Shown here piece by piece: positions 5,662 to 9,336 of a stretch of DNA of 38,574 bases (positions are counted from its first letter, which is position 1; every line of letters begins with the position of its first letter). The translations under genes and the position numbers were made by a program. Source of the stretch: Actinomycetota bacterium. Its GTDB lineage: Bacteria > Actinomycetota > CADDZG01 > WHSQ01. Where the stretch lies: positions 1 to 38,574 of the forward strand of contig JACCXF010000318.1 in assembly GCA_013697295.1 (NCBI GenBank), given 5' to 3'. The notes under the pieces are model-generated. The model was given only the letters and a program-made list of their open reading frames with translations, made no database searches and was not told the origin of the DNA.

Positions 5662-5699
5662 GCACAAGGGCCCGCCACGTAGGCGGGCCCTTTTGTGCG
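5662..5699. terminator. Bidirectional intrinsic terminator between convergent DUF1684 gene and OpuC SBP gene
   Basis: GCACAAGGGCCCGCC-ACGTA-GGCGGGCCCTTTTGTGC, long near-perfect hairpin. Confidence 0.85.
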
Positions 5700-5716: not shown

Positions 5717-6682
5717 TTACTCCGCCGCCTTCGCTAGATCGCTAACAGCCGACAGACCGAACTCATCGGCCGTCTCCTGGGTCACGACGAACGCGTTCGT
5801 GTCGTTGGCCGCAGACGGCTCCAGAAGCGTGAGCCCGTCCTTCTCTACCAACGGCTGCAACAGGTCGACGTTCTCGGTGGGCTCCCCGCTCGCCGCGGCA
5901 TCGGGGTCGAGGAAGAGAAGCAGTGAGCCAAGGTACTCGGGCGCGACCTGGATCTCGCCGCTCTTGAGAGCGGGATAGAGGATCTCGCGCGACCGCAGGT
6001 TGGTCTGGCGATTCACGGTGTAGCCCGCTTGCTCGAGCACCTGCGCGTACATCTCGGCAACGATCTGGTTCTCGGCGAACGCAACCGCGCCGACGGTGAT
6101 GTCCCCGGATCCACCGCCCCCCTCAGCCGAGATGCCCTCATCCTCGAGGAAACCGGCGGCGACATCCGCGGGATCGTCTTGGTCGATCTCGACGCTACTG
6201 TTCAGCTCGATCATAGTCTCGGTCGTGATCGCAGCGGACACGTCATTCAATGCTCCTTCGACCGTGTCGTCGAGCGCATCCTGCCGGATGAGCGGCGTGA
6301 TGCTCTCCGCGGTTTGCAAACCCTTGTCATCCTCGAGGGCTACGAATTCGTTCGCCTTGATGGCGCTCGAGGTCGAGAACAGCAGGCCGACATCGATCCG
6401 ACCCGCCTTCAGTGCGTTCACAGTTTGAGGACCACCTACGTCGAGAGGCTGGAACTCTTCGAACTCGATGCCATACGTCTCTTCAAGTCCCGGGATGCAG
6501 AACGGTCTATCGGGACACTCCGGCGGGCCGCCCAGGATCATCGAGCTGGCTACCGGTTCACCACTGCCTCCTCCTCCAGAGGAGTCTCCTTCGTCGTCGC
6601 TCACTCCCGACCCGCACGCGCCCAGTAACAGCAGCAACGTGAGCAGGGCCGCCCCATGAGCGTTCTTGCGGAAACTCCGCAT
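5717..6682 (-). CDS. OpuC/ProX-type glycine betaine/osmoprotectant ABC transporter substrate-binding lipoprotein, lobe order apparently circularly permuted
   Basis: Lipobox LLLLLGACGSG. First half ILGGPPECPDRPFCIPGLEETYGIEF…VALEDDKGLQTAESITPLIR resembles the usual C-lobe. After linker AEGGGGSG, second half DITVGAVAFAENQIVAEMYAQVLEQAGYTV…GEIQVAPEYLGSLLLF…NDTNAFVVTQETADEFGLSAVSDLAKAAE* resembles the usual N-lobe. Confidence 0.85.
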   Translation of the reverse strand: MRSFRKNAHGAALLTLLLLLGACGSGVSDDEGDSSGGGGSGEPVASSMILGGPPECPDRPFCIPGLEETYGIEFEEFQPLDVGGPQTVNALKAGRIDVGLLFSTSSAIKANEFVALEDDKGLQTAESITPLIRQDALDDTVEGALNDVSAAITTETMIELNSSVEIDQDDPADVAAGFLEDEGISAEGGGGSGDITVGAVAFAENQIVAEMYAQVLEQAGYTVNRQTNLRSREILYPALKSGEIQVAPEYLGSLLLFLDPDAAASGEPTENVDLLQPLVEKDGLTLLEPSAANDTNAFVVTQETADEFGLSAVSDLAKAAE

Positions 6683-6821: not shown

Positions 6822-7565
6822 TCAGGACGCGGAACCGGCCTCCGAGCCGATAGCCGGGCCCGGCAGGACGCGCCTTCCACCAGCCGATCGCTGCGAACGG
6901 GTCTTGGGCGTCACTACGCGTTCGAGCAAGCCGAACCCGACCTCGGTGGCCACCGCAAGAAGAGCAACCAACAGGGCGCCTCCAACGATCTGCGGGTCGT
7001 CCCCCACCGAGAACCCATCAACTATGAAGCGGCCGAGCCCGCCCCACCCCGCCACCGCCCCCAGCGTCGCCGTTGCAACCACCTGAACCGCTGCGAGGCG
7101 TAGGCCGGAAACGATCAACGGGGTTGCCAGCGGCAGCTCGAGACGAGTGAGCACCTCTCCCTCCCGCATGCCCATGCCGCGTGCCGCCTCGACTGTGTCC
7201 GCGTCGACACCTTTAACCCCTACATAGGTATTCGCCAGGATCGGGGGAATGGCAAGTAAGAACAACGCGATGAACGTGGGCCAGAAGCCGATGTTCCCCG
7301 GCCAGTTCAGCGTGAACGTGTAGGTCAAGCCGAGGATCCCGAAAGAGGGAAGTGCCCGGCCAAAGTTCCCGACGGTCACCGCTACGAACTCGAATCTCCT
7401 CTTGTGACCGATGTACACGCCTGCGGGAAACGCGATCAGGGCGCCTAGGATCGTCGCCTGAGCCGACATCTGGATGTGTTCCCACAGACGGACCGGGATC
7501 CCGGCCGAGCCCGACCAGTTCTCGGCTGCCGTCAGCCACGTCCACACGGCCCCGAACAGGTCCAT
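6822..7565 (-). CDS. OpuC-type osmoprotectant ABC transporter permease
   Basis: Multi-TM protein with EAARGMGMREGEVLTRLELPLATPLIVSGLRLAAVQVVATATLGAVAGWGGLG EAA-loop signature. Confidence 0.85.
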   Translation of the reverse strand: MDLFGAVWTWLTAAENWSGSAGIPVRLWEHIQMSAQATILGALIAFPAGVYIGHKRRFEFVAVTVGNFGRALPSFGILGLTYTFTLNWPGNIGFWPTFIALFLLAIPPILANTYVGVKGVDADTVEAARGMGMREGEVLTRLELPLATPLIVSGLRLAAVQVVATATLGAVAGWGGLGRFIVDGFSVGDDPQIVGGALLVALLAVATEVGFGLLERVVTPKTRSQRSAGGRRVLPGPAIGSEAGSAS

Positions 7566-8245
7566 CAGATCGTCGCCCTCCGCTCCCTGTGAGCCCAGGG
7601 CGTCACCAAGCGTTCGACCCGGACGAGGAGAAAGTCCACCAGGACCGCCAGTCCCAGCGAGAGGATCGAGCCGAGGAGGGAGGCGGTCGGGAAGTTGCGG
7701 TCGATGCCCATCAAGATGAAGAACCCAAGTCCGCCCTTTCCGATCAGGGCGGTGACCGTGACCAGACCGATCGTGGTTACCGTTGCGATCCGGATCCCGG
7801 CGATGATCACCGGCGTCGAAAGAGGAAGCTCAACGCGCCACAGGAGCTCCGATCGCGAATAGCCCATCCCAAGCGCCGCTTCGCGCGCATCGGAAGGCAC
7901 TCCGCTCAATCCGGAGACGACACCGCGGATCAGGATCAATAACGTGTAGCTCACTAACCCGATCTCCGCAGTCAGGACACTGAGACGCGTGTACGGGACT
8001 AAGAAAGCGAACAGGGCGAGGCTCGGGATTGTGTAGAGCAGTCCGGTCACCGCCGCTATGGGTCCGTAGCTCCTGCGATGTCTGTGGGCGAAGATCGCGA
8101 GAGGGAACGAGATGAGCATCCCTATCGCTACTGCAAGGAAGGTCAGGTAGGAATGCTCGATCAACCGCGTCCACACATCGTCCATGTGGTCGGCGATCCA
8201 CCCCCAGTCGATGTAAGGCTGGCCCTCGACCTGAGCCCGGATCAA
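7565..8245 (-). CDS. OpuC-type osmoprotectant ABC transporter permease
   Basis: LLYTIPSLALFAFLVPYTRLSV…DAREAALGMGYSRSELLWRVELPLSTPVIIAGIRIATVTTIGLVTVTALIGKGGLG. Confidence 0.85.
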   Translation of the reverse strand: MIRAQVEGQPYIDWGWIADHMDDVWTRLIEHSYLTFLAVAIGMLISFPLAIFAHRHRRSYGPIAAVTGLLYTIPSLALFAFLVPYTRLSVLTAEIGLVSYTLLILIRGVVSGLSGVPSDAREAALGMGYSRSELLWRVELPLSTPVIIAGIRIATVTTIGLVTVTALIGKGGLGFFILMGIDRNFPTASLLGSILSLGLAVLVDFLLVRVERLVTPWAHRERRATI

Positions 8246-9336
8246 GTCACGATCTCCTTCGAGATCTTCTCGAGAGTCAGTATGCCCTTGTACCGCTGGC
8301 CCTCGGTGGCAACGACGGCCACCTGGGTGCGAGACGTGACGATCGAATCGAGCGCTTCTCGAAGCGTGCTCTCGCCGGTCACGTAAGCACTGAAGGGGCG
8401 GGGATCAACGTCCGACACCCGCTCGGCCTTCTCGAGGCCGGAACGATCGACCCATCCCAGCAACTCCCCGTCCTCGACGACGCTGATCCAGTCGAAGTCG
8501 AACCGGGCCAACTCCTCGAGCGCGTCCTTGGAGCTCGAGCCGGGCGCCGTTACCGGCCCATCTTCGACCCGGATCTCCTCCACCTTCATCAAGGCCAGGC
8601 GCTTCAGGCCCCGTTCGACGCCCACGAACTTCCTGACGAAATCGTTGGCCGGTTGGCGCAAGATCTCCTCCGGCGTGGCGAATTGCTCGATCTTTCCTCC
8701 CACGTTCAGGATCGCTATCCGATCCGCGATCTTGATCGCCTCATCGATGTCGTGCGTCACGAAGACGATGGTCTTCTGCAGCCTCCGTTGGATATCCAGG
8801 AACTGATCCTGGAGGCGCTCGCGCACGATGGGATCAACCGCGCCGAACGGCTCGTCCATTAGCATCACGGGTGGGTCGGCCGCGAGGGCTCGGGCAACCC
8901 CTACCCGCTGACGCTGACCGCCCGAAAGCTCGCTGGGATAACGCTCGAGCATCCGCTCGTCGAGATCGAAGATGGACACGAGCTCGCTGATGCGCTCTTC
9001 GATCCGTCCTCCCTCCCAGCCCTCTAACTTCGGAACGGTTGCCATGTTCTGCGCAACCGTCCTGTGAGGCAGGAGGCCGATACTTTGGATCACGTACCCG
9101 ATCCCGCGTCGCAAGCGCACGGCGTCCTGCTCGAGGACGTCCGTGCCATCGACGAAGATGTGACCCGAGGTTGGTTCGACCAACCTGTTGATCATCTTCA
9201 TCGTGGTCGTCTTCCCACATCCCGACGGACCCACGAGGACCACGGTCTCTCCATCGGCCACTTCCATCGAGAGACCCTCGACCGCAGACTGATCCGTCGA
9301 GTCGAACCTCTTGGTCACGTCTTCGAGCCGGATCAT
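8242..9336 (-). CDS. Osmoprotectant ABC transporter ATP-binding protein with C-terminal CBS-like region
   Basis: Walker A GPSGCGKTTTMKM, signature LSGGQRQRVGVARAL, Walker B VMLMDEPFGAVDP; C-terminal CBS-like FDWISVVEDGELLGWVDRSGL…TQVAVVATEGQRYKGILTLEKI. Start chosen at MIRLEDVTKRF. Confidence 0.9.
   Translation of the reverse strand: MIRLEDVTKRFDSTDQSAVEGLSMEVADGETVVLVGPSGCGKTTTMKMINRLVEPTSGHIFVDGTDVLEQDAVRLRRGIGYVIQSIGLLPHRTVAQNMATVPKLEGWEGGRIEERISELVSIFDLDERMLERYPSELSGGQRQRVGVARALAADPPVMLMDEPFGAVDPIVRERLQDQFLDIQRRLQKTIVFVTHDIDEAIKIADRIAILNVGGKIEQFATPEEILRQPANDFVRKFVGVERGLKRLALMKVEEIRVEDGPVTAPGSSSKDALEELARFDFDWISVVEDGELLGWVDRSGLEKAERVSDVDPRPFSAYVTGESTLREALDSIVTSRTQVAVVATEGQRYKGILTLEKISKEIVT

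Follow-up and report, generated by a model that had tools for sequence, protein, structure and literature searches.

Permutation is already known among glycine-betaine binding proteins: that Bacillus subtilis OpuAC is permuted relative to ProX was published in 2008 with CPSARST (PMC2395249). A tethered example is also on record, Treponema pallidum MglB-2 (Tp0684), which was proposed to be a 'Type Ic' binding protein and a natural permutant, with tethering put forward by its authors as a cause (PMC4990184). The gene described here lies at 5717–6682 of the window (the whole stretch of 38,574 nucleotides that was analysed, to which all positions refer), and its product shares its half order with OpuAC (2b4l, 2b4m, 3chg, and 5nxx) and its sequence family and fold with A. 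fulgidus ProX (AfProX, 1sw1) and OpuC/OsmF/EgtU-type proteins, to which both of its halves match. MglB-2 resembles it in being a permuted, tethered ABC binding protein but has a Type I fold, binds a sugar, and stems from an unrelated event in which only the first three strands of one lobe were moved, with a fourth crossover. We consider it very probable that the window gene encodes a functional substrate-binding protein that is anchored to the membrane and serves an OpuC/OsmF-type (ProV-class) importer, and that this protein is a true circular permutant with a two-lobed fold, one that likely originated by duplication.

The coding sequence, on the minus strand, is a single intact open reading frame for 321 amino acids that starts with an ATG at 6682, preceded by GGGAGGGAACC, and ends with a TAA stop codon at 5717–5719. 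All of its parts, like its partner genes, are on the same strand. A predicted signal peptide (residues 1–23; 6614–6682) ends in the lipobox LGAC (residues 20–23, with Cys23), which was read by inspection and from which lipidation is predicted, and is followed by a linker containing SGGGGSGEP (residues 24–44; 6551–6613). Next comes the half found at the C-terminus of normal proteins (residues 45–184; 6131–6550), corresponding to positions ~117–256 of PF04069. A junction, SAEGGGGSG (residues 185–193; 6104–6130), joins this old C-terminus to the old N-terminus, and the protein is completed by the half that normal proteins carry at their N-terminus (residues 194–321; 5720–6103; AfProX ~6–135). The motif GGGGSG occurs twice, after the lipobox and at residues 188–193 between the old C- and N-termini. 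Upstream of the gene are two ABC permease genes (BPD_transp_1; 6822–7565 and 7565–8245) and a gene for a ProV-type ABC ATPase with a CBS domain (8242–9309, with a provisional start codon). The ATPase scored 356.9 bits against TIGR01186 (cut-off, 326.6), and the binding-protein gene is, as judged from this predicted gene content, part of a complete ProV-class ABC importer operon. The CBS domain of the ATPase matches PF00571, as in ionic-strength-sensing OpuA-type ATPases. Downstream, a hairpin seen by eye at 5668–5697 received no terminator score in a terminator scan.

The first-pass annotation had proposed a circular permutation, and the proposal is borne out by Pfam, by sequence matches to PDB chains, by un-permutation, by relatives, and by fold comparison. 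In a genome-wide search, the halves of PF04069 (OpuAC) were matched in swapped order with E values of 1.8e-25 and 3.5e-21, residues 194–321 corresponding to model positions 2–113 and residues ~45–184 to the second half of the model. Un-permuting the sequence in silico, as had been suggested, turned two PF04069 stretches with 163.9 bits into one end-to-end match to positions 2–256 with a higher score of 179.5 bits, above the cut-off of 21.2 across the whole domain, as expected for a member of the family. Alignment to AfProX left no gap between the two pieces, with residues 45–184 matching 135–273 and residues 191–320 matching 4–135, so that each part was present once, the two parts were complementary, and nothing was missing. 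The linear order of a standard OpuC binding protein, which was to count against permutation, was seen in neither the ProX nor the PF04069 matches; instead, complementary halves occur once each in swapped order with the original termini joined. The nearest normal-order relative, L067 (CALAEC010000138.1, from an uncultured actinobacterium), has a single PF04069 match (2–256) and the same operon, and once rotated it shows 68% identity across 268 residues. Against the NCBIfam OsmF equivalog model NF049931, the window protein scored 96.2 bits in two stretches, compared with the >400 bits required.

An AlphaFold2 model, obtained with a 129-row alignment of permutants and separate halves of normal-order relatives, had a pLDDT of 97.6 and a pTM of 0.92 and predicts that the complete binding-protein fold is retained; an earlier model from a 6-row alignment was poor (pLDDT 51) and was set aside. 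The first-pass annotation had equated the two halves with the two lobes and had placed the break at the hinge, and neither point holds. In the type II binding fold each half feeds both lobes, and the permuted protein keeps its two inter-lobe crossovers, NDTNAFVV and LFSTSSAI...FVALEDD, unbroken. With the lobes assigned from type II topology, we take the cut to fall within lobe II, after the SDLA helix and ahead of the MILGG strand, a placement with which the predicted secondary structure is consistent. The new termini would thus open inside lobe II and the old termini would be bridged by the short glycine-rich linker, such that lobe I would now be one continuous segment, lobe II would be split, and the lipid anchor would have moved from lobe I to lobe II. 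The protein would form an ordinary two-lobed clam, and since neither the hinge crossovers nor the pocket residues have been lost, closing on the ligand as usual is expected.

The pocket columns hold the same residues in the normal-order and permuted groups, and binding is therefore probably unchanged. Among the positions of the four cage tyrosines of AfProX, which we take to be Tyr63, Tyr111, Tyr190, and Tyr214, the window protein keeps Tyr63, has Phe for Tyr190 and Asn (N296) for Tyr111, and is acidic at Tyr214; two of the four are non-aromatic in normal-order relatives as well. Because this aromatic cage is only partly present in either order, the ligand can only be guessed at, most plausibly one of the compatible solutes or some other small zwitterion.

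A likely route to the permuted gene is an in-frame tandem duplication after which the first N-terminal half and the last C-terminal half were lost. Normal-order relatives often carry a glycine-rich linker right after the lipobox (GEDGSGGGGGGGGGEDRGT in L067), and the inner GGGGSG precedes the N-terminal half exactly as that linker does in normal proteins. The inner motif would be a relic of the post-lipobox linker of the second copy, two glycine-rich linkers being the pattern expected from a tandem duplication whose outer halves were lost. Most permutant junctions are short and contain glycine, and terminal overlaps are mostly between −3 and +8 model positions. No intermediate, either a tandem or a 1.5-copy gene, was found among the genes surveyed.

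When the profile of normal-order proteins was doubled, at 266 positions per copy, permutants aligned to it in one pass, and at least three cut sites were distinguished within the same Actinomycetota subfamily: ~125 (CP1, the type of the window protein), ~158 (CP2), and ~190 (CP3) of 266, with the CP3 cut adjoining the crossover from lobe II to lobe I. The survey covers Actinomycetota, and its genome counts are lower bounds given that scoring was confined to the best candidates in each genome. CP3 was present in ~102 of 299 sampled genomes of one taxonomic order and CP1 in 13 or 14, counts that were read from matched ranges with representatives only verified by the doubled profile. Another order yielded CP2 in ~14 of 299 genomes and CP1 in 7 or 8, and a third contributed two more CP1 genes. 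A tblastn search with a CP3 protein matched an annotated mycobacterial plasmid gene (H23) in a single piece across the junction. One gene, L080, is CP2 by position but begins at a contig end and is probably CP1; another candidate, L011, was dropped as a normal-order protein with a chance motif match.

Several features of individual permutants were also apparent. Two genes (L193:2121–4070 and L194:1927–4005) encode a CP1-type domain fused to PF01471 (peptidoglycan-binding) and PF01522 (polysaccharide deacetylase) domains; no ABC partner genes were detected near them, and their products are possibly cell-wall enzymes with a predicted solute-sensing domain. Many CP3 proteins (L082, L185–L188, L190–L192, and L204) have a cysteine just before the new N-terminal strand and a second at the old CP1 seam (SDLAxxC), a pair that is missing from the other CP3 branch (L170, L195, and L203) and that could possibly form a disulphide anchoring the new N-terminus. 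Tandem CP3 binding-protein genes lie beside one importer in L192 (2573–3925 and 3929–5185), and searches suggested such a pair also in G737, G767, and G817.

As to why permuted genes spread, we give an even chance to selective neutrality, in which the fold tolerates permutation and the new order drifts to fixation after a tandem duplication; being a reading of why the form spread, it is compatible with the explanation preferred here. Pocket residues and operon are unchanged, and natural permutants usually keep function, both as neutrality would have it, but the reuse of one seam (CP1, also in OpuAC) suggests at least a structural bias, as does the fact that about 100 of the 299 genomes from one order have kept CP3. 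The CP1 seam may also coincide with the point at which a pair of pseudo-equivalent halves were once fused, via duplication and domain swapping, when such proteins originated (for background, see PMC9815098), and such an ancestral half-unit seam may account for the recurring cut. A more tentative proposal is that Actinomycetota OpuC-type proteins permute repeatedly and adaptively, with CP1 (at the half-unit seam), CP2 (at the next lobe-II strand), and CP3 (beside the hinge crossover) re-siting the lipid anchor, to lobe II or the hinge, in a way that tunes docking or closing of the tethered receptor. If true, this would amount to a natural permutation scan of one protein.

Trees were built on rotated sequences, and the changes of order counted on them are undirected, with gain and loss not distinguished. 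A quick tree of 115 proteins needed 12 changes among four states, or 11 between normal and permuted order, at least 7 of the latter on starred branches. In a careful tree of 57 proteins, from which L142 and L130 (present in the large tree) were left out for their incomplete or divergent ends, 9 changes were needed in all and at least 7 normal/permuted changes fell on starred, that is, well-supported, branches; starred branches imposed every one of the 6 changes required for CP1 alone, and CP3 formed one clade (support 95/93). The expectation that the permuted versions would form a single clade beside this permease/ATPase set was thus not borne out. On these sequence-based trees, the order changed several times, at three or more cut sites. 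One ancient CP1 permutation in Actinomycetota, followed by repeated reversion and later shifts to CP2 and CP3, is the alternative, and we regard it as unlikely. The change counts are silent on gain versus loss, and grouping the window clade with the G268/G298 family clade was not rejected (AU p = 0.064), so these two might represent one event; nevertheless, placing all clean CP1 genes in a single clade was rejected (p = 5e-5), as was placing all permutants together with one origin (p = 1.7e-81). Given that every ProX/OpuC chain in the PDB that was matched over both halves has the normal order, many reversions to that same order are less economical. It is simpler to take the normal order as ancestral; some of the changes may be reversions.

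The cut of OpuAC equals that of the window protein, lying between the last helix of the N-terminal half and the first strand of lobe II. When folds were searched in an order-dependent way, B. subtilis OpuAC supplied all of the five best PDB matches (E values of 1e-11 to 1e-10, TM scores of 0.53–0.59, spanning 288 columns), with AfProX at an E value of 3e-6 and TM scores of 0.37–0.40. Identical order and the leading place of OpuAC in this search are what would be seen if the window protein were a divergent OpuAC, from a family that always had this order, yet such shared descent is highly improbable. Identity to OpuAC is only ~14–16%, and in a profile search of the PDB, AfProX was matched with an E value of 1e-44, compared with 0.007 for OpuAC. 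The affinity for ProX/OpuC chains is thus stronger by tens of orders of magnitude, which places the window protein on the ProX/OpuC/OsmF side and OpuAC on another branch of the family; this placement is by profile E values, OpuAC being outside the trees. The nearest normal-order relative is also 68% identical after rotation, as noted above, and the window clade sits among normal-order proteins. The permutant profile runs through the junction in one stretch on 2b4l, weakly (at that same E value of 0.007), whereas ProX/OpuC/EgtU chains, which have the normal order, give two swapped stretches. The window protein has thus reached an OpuAC-like order within the ProX/OpuC side of the family. Residues 104–255 of the L. 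lactis OpuA binding domain (3l6g) match the N-terminal ~150 residues of OpuAC 2b4l, and the order therefore differs even between these two OpuA systems.

The same half order was present in five genomes of the same family (G001, G009, G010, G011, and G013; 45–76% identity) and in named public Actinomycetota metagenome-assembled genomes (L060–L064), and six such permuted genes were found among 24 genomes of the host's class. On contigs that were long enough, permuted genes share the ATPase-permease-permease-binding protein layout with normal-order relatives, the exceptions including the L193 and L194 fusions. Although the host genome is a 358-contig draft, a mis-joining of half genes or tandem copies in assembly or gene calling has a negligible probability, given that the order is conserved across these five independent genomes (one with 6 contigs), that genomes consisting of a single contig, G683 and G210 among them, also contain CP1 or CP3 permutants, that the contig carries no other PF04069 half, and that the gene has one open frame, a signal peptide, and an operon around it. 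A separate paralogue of the host, L001, has the normal order and shows 44% identity once rotated, and a third, weak PF04069 relative in that genome (G000:C108:886–1296) covers model positions 73–222 only.

The novelty of the exact form, which the first-pass annotation had asked to be checked, is limited, since OpuAC has the same order. Permutants within the ProX/OpuC subfamily, with several cut sites and repeated origin among close normal relatives, were not found in the searchable literature, which leaves most subscription journals outside it. For annotation, the warning is that standard scoring returns these proteins as two fragments without noticing the changed order. Biosensors derived from this family, of which the SnFR acetylcholine and nicotine sensors are examples, might profit from naturally permuted scaffolds. 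As a rule, a natural permutation is known as one old event separating distant proteins. The subfamily described here has 68%-identical relatives in both orders, several changes, at least three cut sites, and matching operons, which makes it testable why cut sites recur and whether tandem duplication is the route, as well as what effect attaching the lipid anchor to the opposite lobe would have on a tethered binding protein, a question akin to the proposal made for T. pallidum MglB-2.
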